From Ruegeria intermedia (GTDB lineage Bacteria; Pseudomonadota; Alphaproteobacteria; Rhodobacterales; Rhodobacteraceae): a DNA stretch of 64,000 bases. This document shows, piece by piece, positions 1 to 18,181 of the stretch (its first letter is position 1; each line of letters begins with the position of its first letter). The translations under genes and the position numbers were made by a program. Location of the stretch: the NCBI RefSeq assembly GCF_900129345.1, contig NZ_FQVK01000009.1, positions 62,001 through 126,000 of the forward strand, written 5' to 3'. The notes beneath the pieces were generated by a model. The model made no database searches, was not told the origin of the DNA, and was given only the letters and a program-made list of their open reading frames with translations.

Positions 1-1345
1 GGCCGTCGGGCAGCAGGCGAATGCCGTTCCTGTCGCGCTTGTCCAGCCCGGCCTCGTCCAGCAGGGCATTGGCCTGGTCGATATCGAACTGTGCCCAGGC
101 CTGCGCGTTTTCTTCACTGTAGAAGGGCGAGGCCGGCAGCACCGACATGGCCGCCGGATGCGCCAGTTTGAAATACAGGGCCTGATTGATGGTCTGCCGG
201 TCGATCGCCAGCGACAGCGCCCGGCGGACGCGCACATCGCGCAGCACGTTGCGCCAGACCTCGTCTTCATAGTTCAGATTGGGATAGATCGCGATCTGCG
301 AGGCGACACCGGTCTTCCACAGAAAGGTCTTGTAGTTGCCCTGCGCCTCGCCCTTTTTCAAGATCGAGGCATCGCGGAAATCAAGCCCGCGACCCTGCAG
401 ATCGGTCTCGCCGGCATTGGCCTTGGCCGCGACCAGGCCGGGGGCGACGATTTCCATCTCGACCACGTCGATATAGGGCAGTTGCACGCCCTTGGCGTCG
501 ATGCGGTGATAATAGGGATTGCGTACGAAATTGTGCCGGATCTTCTTGCCCGAGCTGGCATTCAGCCAGGGCTGAAGCGTCGGCAGTTCGTGGTTGTCGT
601 ACTTGTAGAGGTTGTCCAGCTTGTTGTGCAGCGCGGCCCAGCTTTTGACGCGGGCATCTTCCACCAGGAATGCAAGCTCTTCCTTGTCGGCGTATTTCTC
701 GTGATAGCGTTTCAGGAACTCGGCCGGCCGATAGATGAAGGGCGGACGCGCCTGCGCCAGCGACTGAAGGAAGTTCGGGTTGGGATCTTCCCATTCATAG
801 ATCACCGTCGTCTCATCAGGGAACGAGACCGTGGGAAATTTGCCCTCGACCCGCAGGAAATCGGGCGGACCCGAGGGGCTGAGCAGTTCGTTGTTGGCCA
901 CGTCTTCCCACCAGTACCGGAAATCTTCAGACGTGAAAGGCGCGCCATTGGACCATTTGTGGCCCTTGCGCAGATGCAGCGTGAACTTGCGGTTGTCCTC
1001 GTTCTCGTAGCTGGCCAGCAGGTCGGGCACCAGATTGTAGTCGGCGTCATAACCCACCAACCGCGCATAGCCATAGACCACCATCTGACGGATGTCCTTG
1101 GACCGGGTGACCATGGTGCGCAGGGTGCCGCCCTGTTTGCCGAAGGCGCGGCCCTTGGCCTCGAGGTCGACGATCAGCGGCTCTTGCGGGATACGGTCCT
1201 GTATCGGTGGCAGGTTCCCGGCATCGACCTCGGTTTTCCAGAACGTGCTTTCCTGCAGATCAGGCAGGTTGTCCGCCTGAGCGGCAAGCCCGAAGGCAGA
1301 GGCCAGAACGGTGGCCAGCGTCAGCAATCGAGGGGTCTTAAACAT
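1..1345 (-). CDS. ABC transporter substrate-binding protein, family 5 (partial, C-terminus outside window)
   Basis: The frame reads leftward from an ATG at 1343-1345 and is still open at base 1, so about 448 residues are visible and the C-terminus is missing. Residues 1-24 form a Sec signal peptide (basic start, hydrophobic core, cleavage after A-Q-A). The mature part has the peptide/nickel-binding (SBP_bac_5) pattern: a tract reading LVPDLLASYE, then KFTLHLRKGHKWSNGAPFT and later VRRALSLAIDR. It should be a periplasmic receptor for oligopeptides or a similar solute. Its start overlaps the end of the upstream ABC ATPase gene by 8 bases, which indicates one operon. The permease genes would be expected further left. 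The ligand cannot be told from sequence. Confidence 0.88.
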   Translation of the reverse strand, partial: MFKTPRLLTLATVLASAFGLAAQADNLPDLQESTFWKTEVDAGNLPPIQDRIPQEPLIVDLEAKGRAFGKQGGTLRTMVTRSKDIRQMVVYGYARLVGYDADYNLVPDLLASYENEDNRKFTLHLRKGHKWSNGAPFTSEDFRYWWEDVANNELLSPSGPPDFLRVEGKFPTVSFPDETTVIYEWEDPNPNFLQSLAQARPPFIYRPAEFLKRYHEKYADKEELAFLVEDARVKSWAALHNKLDNLYKYDNHELPTLQPWLNASSGKKIRHNFVRNPYYHRIDAKGVQLPYIDVVEMEIVAPGLVAAKANAGETDLQGRGLDFRDASILKKGEAQGNYKTFLWKTGVASQIAIYPNLNYEDEVWRNVLRDVRVRRALSLAIDRQTINQALYFKLAHPAAMSVLPASPFYSEENAQAWAQFDIDQANALLDEAGLDKRDRNGIRLLPDG

Positions 1346-3110
1346 GGCAACGTACCTTATGGCCGGGCTCCATCTCTACCAGCGAAGGTATCACGGAGTC
1401 TGTAAATCGAAAGGCGTCATCCCAACTGTCCGGTGATCCGGCGCCAAGGGCAACGAGCTTCAGGTCGATGGGGCGGTTGATGTCGGGCTCGGGCTGGGCC
1501 GCGATCAGCGCCTTGGTGTAGGGGTGACGGGGGTTGTAGAACAGGGTCTCGGGCGGGGCCTGTTCGACCACCAGCCCCTGCCGCATCACGGCGACCTCGT
1601 CCGCGATGCGGGCCACCACCGCCAGGTCGTGCGAGATGAAGAAATAGGACAGGTTCAGGCTGTCCTGCAGGTCCTCGAGCAGCGTCAGGATCTGTTCCTG
1701 CACCGAGACGTCCAGTGCCGAGGTCGGTTCGTCGCAGATGATCAGCGTGGGGTCCAGCATCATTGCGCGGGCAATCGACAGGCGCTGGCGCTGGCCGCCG
1801 GAAAAGGCATGCGGATAGCGTTTCAGCATGTCGGCGTTCAGCCCGACGCGTTTGAGCATCTCGGCCGCCTTTTCGCGTTGCTCCGCCGGGGTGCCGATCC
1901 CGTGAATCTCGAGTGGTTCGGTCATCGCGTCCTGAATGCGCATCCGCGGGCTGAGCGAGCTGTAAGGGTCCTGAAACACCATCTGCGCCTTGCGCTGAAA
2001 CAGCGTGCGTTCGGTGCGCGTCATCTGGTGCACCCGGATCGGATCGTCCTGCGACGTGGCGCGAAACAGAACCTCGCCGCCGGGATCGGGCAGTTCGGCG
2101 CCCAGTGCGATGCGCGCGGCCGTGGTCTTGCCCGACCCGCTTTCGCCGACCACGGCCAGGGTCTTGCCCCGCGCCAGCTTGAGGTCGATGCCACGACAGG
2201 CGTGGATCAGCTTGTCGGCCTTCCACCCGCGGCCCGACCGCATCGTGTAGGTCTTGGACACGCCCTTCATCTCGAGGATCAGATCCTCGTTTGGCATGGG
2301 GATGCCCACGGCATCCTTGTCGGGGATTTCCGGCGCGGCGTCGAACAACTGCTGCGTATAGGGATGCGCCGGTTCGCTCAGGATCAACTCGGCGGGGCCG
2401 GCCTCCATCACGCGGCCCTTGTGCATCACGACCACCTGTTCGGCCATGTTGGCCACCACGCCCAGGTCATGCGTCACAAGGATCAGCGCCATCCCGGTTT
2501 CCTGCTGCAGGTCCTTGATCAGCCCCAGAACCTGCGCTTGTGTCGTCACGTCCAGCGCGGTGGTGGGCTCGTCGGCGATCAGCAGGTCGGGCTTGGCCAC
2601 CATGGCCATCGCGATCATCGCCCGCTGCCGCATCCCGCCTGACATTTCAAAAGGATACGAGTCGTAAGCCCGCGCGGGATCGGGAAAGCCGACGCGTTCA
2701 AACTGTTTCAGAACTTCCTTGCGCGCCTCGGATTCCGAGGCCCCGCGGTGCAGCCACAGGACTTCGCTGACCTGGTTGCCGATCTTGTGCAGCGGCGACA
2801 GCGACCGCATCGGCTCCTGAAAGATCATCGAGATCCGGTTCCCCCGGATGTCGCGCATCCTGCGCTCGCCGAGCGTGGCGAGATCAAGCTGATCCTGTCC
2901 GGTGCCGAAGGTGATCGTGCCCTTCCGGATCTGCGCCGCGCGGGGCAGGATACGAAGCACCGCCCGGCATGATATGGTCTTGCCCGACCCGGACTCTCCG
3001 ACCAAGGCCAGCGTCTGCCCGGCCTCGACATCGAAGCTCACATCTTTGACGACGGAATCCCCGTCCCCGAAACCGATGCTCAGGTCTCGGACAGACAGCA
3101 AGACCGTCAT
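1338..3110 (-). CDS. Dipeptide/oligopeptide-type ABC transporter ATPase with two fused nucleotide-binding domains
   Basis: This 590-residue cytoplasmic protein carries two complete ABC ATPase domains in tandem. Domain 1 has Walker A GESGSGKT at residues 38-45, signature MSGGMRQR at 156-163 and Walker B LLIADE near 176-181. Domain 2 has Walker A GESGSGKT at 322-329, signature FSGGQRQR at 436-443 and Walker B LIICDE near 456-461. Both domains also carry the oligopeptide-binding extension with HPYT motifs. It corresponds to DppD and DppF fused, as in YejF or GsiA. It lies directly upstream of, and overlaps, the family-5 binding-protein gene. All catalytic motifs are intact. Confidence 0.93.
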
Positions 3111-3344: not shown

Positions 3345-3842
3345 GTGCCACATCAGCAAAGCCGCCTGGACCTGTTCATCGACCGCATGGTTTCGCAACG
3401 GGCCTGCCTGGATGCGGCCATTGCCCAGACGTCGGGCATGGCGGGTCCGGTGTTCGAGCTGGGGCTGGGCAACGGGCGGACCTATCACCACATGATCCAG
3501 CGCATCCAGGATCGCCCGGTCTATGTGTTCGAGCGCGCCGTGGCCTCGCACCCCGATTCCACCCCGCCCGAAGACCGTCTGATCCTGGGCGATGTGCGCG
3601 AGACTCTGCCCGCCGCGCTGGATCGGTTCGGCGCGACCGCCAGCCTGATCCACGCCGATCTGGGCGGCCACAACCGCGAAAAGAACGATGCCTTCGCCCG
3701 CTTTGTGTCGCCCCTGATCGAACCGCTGCTGGCCGAGGGCGGGCTGATGGTCTCGAGCGACCGGATGTATTTCGAGACGCTGACGGAACAGCCCCTTCCC
3801 GAAGGCGCGGTGCCAGGGCGCTGCTTCATCTACCGGCGCTGA
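3345..3842 (+). CDS. Class I SAM-dependent methyltransferase-like protein
   Basis: This 165-residue protein starts with GTG, preceded by the ribosome-binding sequence GGAGAG at 3331-3336. An N-terminal glycine-rich SAM-binding motif is visible as VFELGLGNGRTYHHM around residues 36-50. An acidic strand (VYVFERA) and HADLGGHN follow, matching a short class I methyltransferase fold. The substrate is unknown. It is transcribed away from the ABC ATPase gene across a 234-base gap that may contain promoters for both sides, although I could not pick convincing -35/-10 boxes there. Confidence 0.7.
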   Translation: MPHQQSRLDLFIDRMVSQRACLDAAIAQTSGMAGPVFELGLGNGRTYHHMIQRIQDRPVYVFERAVASHPDSTPPEDRLILGDVRETLPAALDRFGATASLIHADLGGHNREKNDAFARFVSPLIEPLLAEGGLMVSSDRMYFETLTEQPLPEGAVPGRCFIYRR

Positions 3843-15094: not shown

Positions 15095-18000
15095 ATGCTG
15101 TATCTTCGGCCTGCTTTGTTCAAACGAACGTTGCCAGTTTCGAGTTTTGGTTCATCAGCAGGGGCAGGCGCCATAGAACGTTCGATTTTCGGGTTTATCT
15201 GGAAGTACTCCAAACGCGATCAGCTGATCCTGTTGGCCGTGACGGCGACCCTTTTCCCGCTGCTGTATCTGACGCTGGAACTGCCCAAACGCATCATCAA
15301 CGATGCGATCGGCGCCTCGAGCGAGGTGGTCGAGGTCTGGGGCTTTGCCCTGGAACAGACGACATTCCTGGTCATCCTGTGTTTTGCCTTTCTGGCCGCC
15401 GTTCTGGCGCATGGCCTGATGAAAATGCGCATCAACACCATGAAGGGCGTCCTGAGCGAGCGTATGCTGCGCCGGCTCCGCTATCGGCTGATCCGGCGGG
15501 CGCTGCGATTCCCGCAGCCCTATTTCGAACGGGTCAGCCAGGGCGAGCTGGTGTCGATGATCACCGCCGAAAGCGAGCCCATGGGCGGCCTGATGGGAGA
15601 CGCGATCAGCCAGCCGGTGCTGCAGGCCGGGCAGATGCTGACCATCCTGTCCTTCCTGTTTCTGCAAAGCGTCTGGTTCGGTCTGGCCGCGGTGGCGCTG
15701 ATCCCGGTGCAGGCCTGGCTGATCCCGCGGCTGCAACGGCAGATCAACCTGCTCAACAAGCGCCGCATTCAACAAGTCCGCGTTCTGGCCGCCCAGATCG
15801 GCGAAAACGCGGCCGGCGCGGCCACCCTGCGCCAGAACGGCGGGTGGCGCTATCGCCTGGCGTTGATCTCGGCGCAGCTGGGCCGGTTGTTCGGCATCCG
15901 GTTCGAGATCTACCAGAAAAAATTCTTCATGAAGTTCATCAACAACTTCATCACCCAACTGACGCCGTTCATGTTTTACCTGGTGGGCGGTCTGCTGGTG
16001 CTGCAGGGGGCGGTATCGTTGGGCGCGCTGGTGGCCGCCCTGGCCGCGTACAAGGACCTGAGTTCGCCCTGGAAGGAACTGCTGACCTACTACAACCAGA
16101 CCCAGGACATGTCGCTGCGGTGGGAGGTGGTGATCGAACGCTTCGCCCCCCAGGGGATGCTGGATGAAAGGCTGTTCGAGGGCACGCCCGAGGACGTTCC
16201 GCGCCTGAAGGGCGACATCGTGCTGGATCAGGTGACGGTGCGCGATCTGGACGGGAACCAGATTCTGGACGATCTGAACCTGACCTTCGGTGCCGGCCGG
16301 ACCATTGGCATCGCCGCCCCCAGCGAGGAGGACCGCCGCGCGCTGGCCGATCTGCTGACGCGCGAGATCCTGCCCGGATCGGGCAAGGTCACGGTCGCGG
16401 GGCGGGACTTGTCGGGCCTGCATCAGGCGGTGATCGCCGCTCGGATCGGACATGCGACCTCGCGCCCGGTGATGTTTCAGGGGACCCTCGGCGACAACGT
16501 GATGATGCCGTTGCGGCAGCGACCGTTGACTCCTCCGCCCGACGATCCCGACTTTCAGGAAACGCTGCGCGCCGGCAACAGCCCCGATTCGCTCGACGCC
16601 GAATGGCTGGATCCGTCGCTGGCCGGGTTTGAAACCACCCAGGACCTGCGCGAGTGGTGGCTGAAGCTGATCGAGGGGATGGGTTCGGGGCCGACCCTGT
16701 TCCAACGCGGGGCCGAGCAGGTGTTCGATCAGGACCTGCACCCCGAACTGGCCGCCCGATTGATCGAACTGCGGCCGGTGGTGCAGGATGCCATTCGGAA
16801 GGCCGGTCTTGAACAGCAGGCGCTGCTGTTTGACCGTGCGTCCTACAATTCGGCGCTGCCCGTGGCCGAAAACCTGCTGTTTGCGGTTCCGCGCGTTCCG
16901 GTGACCCAGCAGTTGCTGGCGCGGCAGACCGTCTTTCTGGGTCAGTTGCGCGACCTGGGGCTGGACGAGACGCTGGTGGCGCTGACGCGCGACGTGATCG
17001 AAATGCTGCGGCAGATCTTCGGGTTGGATGGAACCGACCACCCGCTGTTCCGGAAACTGGGGCTCGAGGCCGCGACCTATGAGGCGGCGGTCGAACTGGT
17101 CGAACGCACGCGCGAGAGCGGGGCTGCCGGGCTGGATGACGAACAACTGGCCAGCTTGCTGGCGGTGCCGTTCGTGATCTCGGCCGAGCAGATCGGGCCG
17201 GCCTTTTCTGACGAATTGAAGAACCGCATTCTGGAATTGCGCCACAGCCATTCGCACAAGCTGATGGAGCGGTTGAACGACGTGTTTGCGCCGCTGGATC
17301 CCGGCCAATTCGCCCCGGGCCTGACGGTGTTGGAGAACGCGCTGTTCGGCAAGGTCAGCCAGATCGGCGGCGCCCGCTCGGACGAGGTGCGCAAACTGGT
17401 CGCCGATGTGCTGGCCGAAAACGGCGCGCGCCCGATGGTAATCGAACTGATCTATGACATCCCGGTCGCGCTGGGTGGGCAGAACCTGCCGGCGGCCTTG
17501 TCCGAGCCGCTGGCCTTCACCCGCGCCACGATCAAGAAGCCCGACATTCTGATCCTGGAAAACGCGCTGGCCAGCTATGGCATGGAAACCCAGATCGCGG
17601 TGTTCCGGAACCTGCGGGCGCTTCTGCCCGACACCACGATCATCTACCTGAACGATCAGTTCCAGAACCCCGACGTGTTCGACATGTATGTCGAAATCCG
17701 GCAAGGTCGGGTCGTGTCAGATCAAGGTGCATCCGAATCCGAAGGCGAAGGCGCGGCCTCGGCGGATCTGGTCCGCAAGCTGCGCGCGCTGGAACAGACG
17801 CCGTTGTTTTCCGGGTTGGATCGGCGGCAGCTGCGCCTGCTGGCCTTCGGGGCGCAATGGTATCGCGCCAGCGCCGGAGAGGTCGTGTTTCTGAAGGACG
17901 ATCAGCCTACCGACGGGGCCTATATGATCATCGAGGGCGAGGCGGGCTTGTACCTGCCGCAAGAGGGCGGCCCCGGCCAATTGGTGACCCGCGTCGGGCC

Positions 18001-18181
18001 GGGCACTCTGGTCGGCGAACTGGGGTTGATCCGCAAGGAACCCCGCGCGCTGAGCATGGTGGCCGAAACCGATCTGACCTGTCTGCGCATCGGCGAAGAA
18101 GAGTTCCTGGCCGTGGTCGAAAACGACGCTGCGACGGCGTTCAAGTTGATGCAGGTGATCGCGGGGTATGTCTCGCGCTGA
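15095..18181 (+). CDS. ABC exporter-like membrane protein with degenerate ATPase domain and C-terminal cyclic-nucleotide-binding domain
   Basis: About 1,028 residues from the ATG at 15095; upstream TTG codons are alternatives and the start is uncertain. Residues 1 to about 330 form a type-IV ABC exporter transmembrane domain with several hydrophobic helices. The following domain aligns with an ABC ATPase (GDIVLDQVTVRDLDGNQILD) but lacks every catalytic signature. The Walker A place reads IAAPSEEDRRAL with no GKS/T. The Q-loop glutamine is absent (ATSRPVMFQG). The signature place reads LGGQNLPAALSEPLAFTRA, Walker B reads ILILENALAS, and the H-loop reads YLNDQFQNPD. The Q-loop and signature places are separated by about 330 residues, far more than normal, so an insertion of a few hundred residues is present. 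Residues about 900-1,025 form a Crp-like cyclic-nucleotide-binding fold (FLKDDQPTDGAYMIIEGEAG). It is unlikely to be an ATP-driven pump of the usual kind; it may be a regulated scaffold or receptor. Confidence 0.8.
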   Translation: MLYLRPALFKRTLPVSSFGSSAGAGAIERSIFGFIWKYSKRDQLILLAVTATLFPLLYLTLELPKRIINDAIGASSEVVEVWGFALEQTTFLVILCFAFLAAVLAHGLMKMRINTMKGVLSERMLRRLRYRLIRRALRFPQPYFERVSQGELVSMITAESEPMGGLMGDAISQPVLQAGQMLTILSFLFLQSVWFGLAAVALIPVQAWLIPRLQRQINLLNKRRIQQVRVLAAQIGENAAGAATLRQNGGWRYRLALISAQLGRLFGIRFEIYQKKFFMKFINNFITQLTPFMFYLVGGLLVLQGAVSLGALVAALAAYKDLSSPWKELLTYYNQTQDMSLRWEVVIERFAPQGMLDERLFEGTPEDVPRLKGDIVLDQVTVRDLDGNQILDDLNLTFGAGRTIGIAAPSEEDRRALADLLTREILPGSGKVTVAGRDLSGLHQAVIAARIGHATSRPVMFQGTLGDNVMMPLRQRPLTPPPDDPDFQETLRAGNSPDSLDAEWLDPSLAGFETTQDLREWWLKLIEGMGSGPTLFQRGAEQVFDQDLHPELAARLIELRPVVQDAIRKAGLEQQALLFDRASYNSALPVAENLLFAVPRVPVTQQLLARQTVFLGQLRDLGLDETLVALTRDVIEMLRQIFGLDGTDHPLFRKLGLEAATYEAAVELVERTRESGAAGLDDEQLASLLAVPFVISAEQIGPAFSDELKNRILELRHSHSHKLMERLNDVFAPLDPGQFAPGLTVLENALFGKVSQIGGARSDEVRKLVADVLAENGARPMVIELIYDIPVALGGQNLPAALSEPLAFTRATIKKPDILILENALASYGMETQIAVFRNLRALLPDTTIIYLNDQFQNPDVFDMYVEIRQGRVVSDQGASESEGEGAASADLVRKLRALEQTPLFSGLDRRQLRLLAFGAQWYRASAGEVVFLKDDQPTDGAYMIIEGEAGLYLPQEGGPGQLVTRVGPGTLVGELGLIRKEPRALSMVAETDLTCLRIGEEEFLAVVENDAATAFKLMQVIAGYVSR

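Follow-up and report, generated by a model that had tools for sequence, protein, structure and literature searches.

The gene studied here lies on the forward strand of a 64,000-nucleotide stretch of Ruegeria intermedia DNA (the window) and encodes a member of a large, conserved proteobacterial family of pseudo-ABC exporters. The 1028-residue protein keeps the exporter fold in its predicted model, has lost every ATPase motif, carries a long insertion in its nucleotide-binding domain (NBD), and ends in a cyclic-nucleotide-binding domain (CNBD). We favor, at slightly less than an even chance, the reading that it acts in an envelope-glycan pathway as a pseudo-ABC exporter under cyclic-nucleotide control, a gate or receptor and not an ATP pump. 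The features on which the analysis rests are as follows.

15095..18181, + strand: pseudo-ABC exporter gene with CNBD, 1028 aa, intact frame
15185..16144, + strand: transmembrane domain, type IV exporter fold, residues 31-350
16202..16504, + strand: degenerate NBD, N-terminal half, residues 370-470 (sequence and fold matches)
16310..16339, + strand: Walker A position, IAAPSEEDRR, residues 406-415 (alignments)
16436..16729, + strand: repeat copy R1, about residues 448-545, Q-loop side and first helical unit (hhalign)
16505..17452, + strand: insertion between Q-loop and signature, residues 471-786 (alignments)
16817..17014, + strand: repeat copy R2, about residues 575-640 (hhalign)
17282..17479, + strand: repeat copy R3, about residues 730-795, reaching into the signature place (hhalign)
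17453..17734, + strand: degenerate NBD, C-terminal half, residues 787-880 (sequence and fold matches)
17471..17500, + strand: signature place, LGGQNLPAAL, residues 793-802 (alignments; LPAAL opposite LSGGQ)
17549..17575, + strand: Walker B place, LILENALAS, residues 819-827 (alignments)
17756..18178, + strand: C-terminal CNBD, residues 888-1028 (Pfam cNMP_binding, E 2.2e-16; aligned to stand-alone CNBDs)
18014..18055, + strand: phosphate-binding cassette GELGLIRKEPRALS, residues 974-987 (Glu and Arg kept)

Domain organization of the 1028-residue protein

The membrane domain matches Pfam ABC_membrane at 59.9 bits (cut-off 28), the fold of an ABC NBD is recognized behind it, and the predicted single-chain model of the protein shows that the exporter fold is retained, with TM287/288 and TmrAB among its fold matches. 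An antisense open frame of 849 aa (15155-17704, - strand) was not taken as a gene, since such a frame is expected from the GC-rich third positions. Within the NBD, the alignments place IAAPSEEDRR, which has neither the Gly frame nor the Lys of GxxGxGK[ST], at Walker A; LPAALSEP opposite LSGGQKQR at the signature; and LILENALAS, without the D-E pair, at Walker B. The Q-loop Gln is replaced by S456 and the H-loop His by D854. The initial annotation had described an ABC exporter fold without a recognizable nucleotide site in which all ATPase motifs are lost, and both statements are borne out by the predicted fold and the alignments.

The same annotation had placed the Q-loop and the signature about 330 residues apart and had deduced an insertion of a few hundred residues, which agrees with the spacing of 330 to 340 that we find. 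From the Q place to the signature Leu there are 342 residues, as against 56 in a canonical exporter; by other marks the spacing is 329 here and 297-412 in 27 relatives of the protein. Compared with a canonical type IV exporter, roughly 285 extra residues thus lie between Q-loop and signature. Profile comparisons with hhalign relate the parts of this region to one another: R2 to R3 (probability 97.8, E 7e-13), R1 to R3 (88.7, E 2.5e-6), and R1 to R2 (88.9 over 27 columns). The canonical Q-loop-to-signature segment aligns with the start of R1 (95.9, 25 columns) and with R3 through the signature (97.0, E 1.1e-10, 62 columns), and weakly with R2 (36.9). We read the insertion as extra copies of the Q-loop-to-signature segment, helical subdomain included, a reading that covers the copies but not the helices between them. 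Modelled alone, the insertion reaches a pLDDT of 91.4, and a comparison of this model with PDB folds gave no significant match.

The C-terminal CNBD, also claimed from the outset, is confirmed by a cNMP_binding match of 60 bits (cut-off 27.5) and by a cassette that keeps both the Glu and the Arg of the phosphate-binding site. The cassette reads GELGLIRKEPRALSMVA in the window protein, and GEIAILCDVPRTATVRA is an example from the stand-alone CNBDs of relatives.

Motif loss across the family

To the family as defined by a profile running from the Q-loop to the end of the protein belong members in 131 of 385 genomes of the class (E≤1e-60). In a sample of 398 genomes of the phylum, 31 have a match at E≤1e-30, all within the class of the window organism. 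A scan of named genomes yielded at least 531 confirmed relatives among at least 591 pattern matches; the 80 that were kept include metagenome bins of Gamma- and Betaproteobacteria, with bin labels taken as given. In two long members, L121 and L160 (1386 and 1417 aa), the membrane domain is preceded by about 500 residues that have no Pfam match and may be real or simply an open upstream frame.

The 198 members were reduced to 138 distinct ones that share no more than 86% identity, and motif states were counted in these; the counts depend on one alignment. The Walker A Lys is absent in 61 and kept in 77, where it is followed by Asp or Glu (53), by Ser or Thr (10), or by another residue (14); the Lys column holds Arg in 45 members. 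Walker B has both Asp and Glu in 6 members, Glu only in 63, Asp only in 29, and neither in 40. All five motifs are lost in 38. A search of these homologues for intact motifs was therefore largely negative, since none of the 138 retains K, Q, D-E and H together, but it did find partial survivors: K-S/T in 10, D-E in 6, and both in 3 (L084, L085 and L216). A fused CNBD is absent from 113 of the members, whose median frame is 908 aa.

On the family tree (FastTree, no outgroup), the 18 rows from the window's taxonomic family (f1) form one group with a support of 100, within which two paralogue groups have supports of 95 and 99. The motifs are gone in all 18 rows. Because both supported paralogue groups lack them, the loss probably predates the duplication that produced the two groups. 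Over the whole tree, the state in which all five motifs are lost needs at least 9 changes and CNBD fusion needs 2. The 25 CNBD-fused rows plus L211 and L231 group weakly (support 52), and this group contains L084 and L085, which still carry GKS and D-E.

These partial survivors bear on the alternative that the protein is still an ATP-using transporter of unusual chemistry, in which members with GxxGSGK[DE], LSxxQ and a Walker B Glu would bind ATP without a Ser/Thr-Mg site and the window's clade would be the extreme end of the range, with residual ATP binding. The 67 members with a Lys followed by a residue other than Ser or Thr, the 63 with a Walker B Glu and no Asp, the three with both K-S/T and D-E, and the ABC_tran matches of less degenerate members (L053, 7.7e-19; L091, 1.8e-20) speak for this account. 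A Walker A Lys survives in 77 of the 138 members and a Walker B Glu in 69, so that outside the window's clade ATP may still be bound or slowly hydrolyzed. For the window protein itself we regard this alternative as unlikely: its Walker A place has neither the Gly frame nor the Lys, the replacement is itself conserved (SEEDR is identical in 33 of 33 rows of the genus), the state of complete loss, seen in 38 of the 138 members, changes at least 9 times on the tree, and the rhizobial members (R. etli, S. meliloti) are also without the Walker A Lys and the Walker B D-E.

Quite unlikely, in our judgment, is that the protein forms the silent half of a heterodimer in which a conventional ABC half-exporter encoded elsewhere in the genome does the ATP work. 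Heterodimeric exporters with one degenerate site are known, among them MsRv1273c/72c (PMC12038006); TM287/288 and TmrAB are themselves fold matches, and conventional half-exporters exist in the same genus. However, the good site of such a heterodimer needs the partner's Walker motifs together with the signature of this chain, which is likewise lost, and no half-exporter gene was seen next to it in the window, in Ruegeria TM1040, in R. etli or in S. meliloti; for these two reasons we hold a heterodimer, whose partner could still be encoded elsewhere, to be less likely. The 590-aa ABC genes at 1338-3110 of the window and downstream of the A. lipoferum member do not supply the missing half, since each encodes a peptide-import-type ATPase that has two NBDs but lacks a membrane domain.

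Selection, possible cyclic-nucleotide input and glycosyltransferase neighbours

Orthologues of the gene, at 79-86% identity, are present in all 36 other genomes of the genus. From 36 pairs with dS of 0.05-1.0, drawn from 33 rows of the genus, we obtained a dN/dS of 0.087 for the whole protein, with regional values of 0.049 for the membrane domain, 0.129 for the N half of the NBD, 0.096 for the insertion, 0.086 for the C half of the NBD, and 0.059 for the CNBD. For the 12 codons of the Walker A stretch, too few to rely on, the ratio over 30 pairs is 0.031. Identities of membrane domain and NBD are 0.923 and 0.826 for this gene, as against 0.928 and 0.888 for a canonical exporter from the same 12 genomes. 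The pseudo-NBD is thus looser than a canonical NBD, yet not free of constraint. The proposal that the gene is intact and not decaying is upheld by these data, and the purifying selection that was to be looked for is found in the overall ratio; SEEDR at the Walker A place is invariant.

All 37 genomes of the genus, that of the window included, hold a second full-length paralogue at 51-54% identity. One copy, a full-length pseudo-ABC protein with CNBD (L031 4929-8159, - strand; G000:C20:25430-28441), is followed in an order that can be read as on a Ruegeria plasmid (L155), where the paralogue's counterpart precedes a CAAX-type protease gene, accD, and a folC-like gene. The paralogue's CNBD cassette is weaker (GDL..PRQ). 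Further copies lie on other contigs: L035 (G020:C6) is broken into separate frames, and L036 (G029:C3) is a 411-aa frame with the membrane domain only. We also observed an orphan ABC-exporter membrane domain of 313-314 aa without an NBD (L037 4965-5909, - strand; G000:C24), which matches Pfam ABC_membrane at 1.4e-10 and nothing else and adjoins a gene read as EF-P; matches at 24-28% identity, in comparably short frames, occur in all 37 genomes.

The CNBD is not always part of the same chain. We examined 132 loci with flanking DNA, 130 of them with a full member, using heuristic gene calling and with some genomes counted twice: the CNBD is fused in 19 of the 130, a same-strand CNBD gene follows immediately downstream in 62, a CNBD is seen in neither place in 46, and 3 loci end too soon. 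The first locus set contains 23 stand-alone CNBD proteins, with a median length of 152 aa. In some lineages a cyclase gene is close by: on plasmids of R. etli, R. johnstonii and S. meliloti, a nucleotidyl cyclase, a solute ABC system, three glycosyltransferases, the family member and the CNBD gene stand together, and relatives of this rhizobial cyclase gene occur in 11 of the 132 loci. By tblastn, the S. meliloti 1021 member maps to 842126-844432 of pSymB, a stretch that covers residues 134-903 of the family query. The Ruegeria intermedia genome encodes 7 class III cyclase domains. A CNBD that is fused or neighbouring, together with a cyclase gene nearby in some lineages, strengthens the hypothesis, put forward in the initial annotation, that the protein may be a second-messenger-gated receptor, scaffold or channel. 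As a whole that interpretation is partly supported, and the observation beneath it is confirmed.

In a metagenome bin of Rhodospirillales (L208 9917-13633, + strand), a pseudo-ABC exporter with CNBD carries a degenerate GGDEF domain (DDLEF) behind the CNBD. This output-like architecture, and a CNBD that is better conserved than the NBD in the window protein, would fit a second-messenger-responsive scaffold or sensor whose membrane domain moves nothing and which assembles or regulates glycosyltransferases. We consider this very unlikely, because the membrane domain is the most conserved part of the protein and as conserved as that of the true exporter from the same 12 genomes. That the gene is simply decaying, as the loss of all catalytic motifs and the broken copy L035 might suggest, has practically no chance of being correct, given an orthologue in every genome of the genus, purifying selection, and the absence of the motifs from both supported f1 paralogue groups.

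The genomic neighbourhood connects the family with glycosyltransferases. Among the first 40 loci, 16 have a divergent GT28-like glycosyltransferase gene immediately upstream, with GT4 genes two or three genes away, and 23 have a CNBD gene immediately downstream. The label GT28 reflects matches below threshold (19.6 bits against 22; 28.6 against 195.9 for the NCBIfam MJ1255 family). Recurring neighbours are a histidine phosphatase, a second GT28-like gene, a Methyltransf_17 gene, and a polysaccharide-deacetylase-like gene, the last named by our own reading without a Pfam match. Of the 104 loci longer than 15 kb, 74 contain GT28-like or GT4 genes and 30 show no glycosyltransferase. Of the 131 genomes with the pseudo-ABC family, 124 also have the GT28-like family, as do 3 of the 254 without it; over the 385 genomes of the class, both are found in 124, the protein only in 7, the glycosyltransferase only in 3, and neither in 251 (agreement 375/385). 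Relatedness was corrected solely by counting taxonomic families, which gives 52 with both, 2 with the protein only, 1 with the glycosyltransferase only, and 118 with neither. This co-occurrence suggests a link between the pseudo-ABC family and envelope glycan.

The window's own genome has a complete glycosyltransferase cluster. It occupies about C9:48.6-55.3 kb of the same contig, outside the window, and lies upstream of the pseudo-ABC gene, which starts at C9:77095, by some 22 kb. The GT28-like gene and the pseudo-ABC gene are divergent on one contig, 14.5-23.7 kb apart, in 36 of the 37 genomes of the genus, and on different contigs in the 37th; this arrangement suggests that the window gene corresponds in position to the family genes linked to glycosyltransferases. 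Between the cluster and the pseudo-ABC gene is a second Methyltransf_17-like gene (3345-3842 of the window, + strand; E 1.1e-70 with its own profile). In S. meliloti, smb20804 and smb20805 may be near the family locus, and no link is claimed. PMC5539429 credits both genes with an effect on the KPS capsule.

Proposed mechanism and comparison with known systems

If the protein is a cyclic-nucleotide-controlled gate or receptor, it would dimerize as exporters do, either with itself or with the genome's second paralogue. ATP hydrolysis would not power this dimer, since Walker A, Walker B and the signature are missing from both composite sites however such proteins pair. Instead, a cyclic nucleotide (or a similar second messenger) bound to the CNBD would move the pseudo-NBDs, which the extra helical units make larger, and this motion would shift the membrane domain between states. 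The GT28-like/GT4 cluster would make a surface glycan or glycolipid, and the switch might then control the passage of this product or its synthesis. Several findings count against this best reading: many members of the family at large keep the Walker A Lys or the Walker B Glu; the glycosyltransferases of the genus are some 15-24 kb away and not adjacent to the pseudo-ABC gene; the second paralogue sits by accD/folC, without glycosyltransferase genes; the CNBD is neither fused nor adjacent in 46 of 130 loci; 30 of 104 long loci have no glycosyltransferase in view; and the rhizobial cyclase relative occurs in just 11 of 132 loci.

A broader proposal, which we regard as possible but doubtful, is that a widespread class of ABC exporters gave up ATP and now serves as a second-messenger-gated passage or receptor for envelope glycan. 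A cyclic-nucleotide sensor, in cis or in trans, would operate the NBD dimer as an allosteric clamp, the dimer having grown through tandem duplication of the Q-loop-to-signature segment, and several lineages would have lost the ATP site completely and independently. The family offers a natural series, from K-S/T plus D-E through K-D/E to nothing left, in which the exporter frame stays and the engine is removed, and this makes it testable whether a second messenger alone can gate ABC membrane domains. It also points at a glycosyltransferase cluster that is widely shared in Alphaproteobacteria, genetically tractable rhizobia included, seemingly with its own cyclic-nucleotide input. In public annotation the members go by names such as 'ABC transporter transmembrane domain-containing protein' and 'ABC transporter ATP-binding protein', and among the papers listed from the open-licence literature, which takes in few subscription papers, none describes the family or its glycosyltransferase cluster.

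It is instructive to compare the window protein with systems that share parts of its design. SUR and CFTR are ABC proteins whose role is regulation or gating and not pumping, and they keep ATP binding; they have no family link to the window protein beyond the ABC fold. In SthK, one of the bacterial CNBD channels, a CNBD works a membrane pore, and the stand-alone CNBD of one relative (L107) matches SthK by sequence, although there is no family link to the pseudo-ABC exporter beyond that domain. The type IV (ABCB-like) exporters MsbA, PCAT1, ComA and TM287/288 differ from the window protein, which has no Walker A, Q, signature, Walker B or H; it scores 106.6 bits against the NCBIfam MsbA model (TIGR02203), whose cut-off is 602.

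MsRv1273c/72c (PMC12038006) resembles the window protein in that loss of catalytic residues is tolerated in an exporter frame. There, however, one composite site works, whereas the window chain has no motif left to contribute to either site and has no partner gene beside it. Nearest in architecture among the systems found is HetC of Nostoc, which PMC10986499 describes as a CNBD-containing peptidase ABC exporter whose CNBD is required and binds ppGpp in vitro and whose ATPase is essential. As in the window protein, ABC exporter and CNBD are on one chain. In contrast to HetC, which as described there has a C39 peptidase, an N-terminal CNBD and an essential ATPase, the window protein has no peptidase (no Pfam match to a C39 domain at E≤1), a C-terminal CNBD, no ATPase motifs, and a repeated NBD segment.
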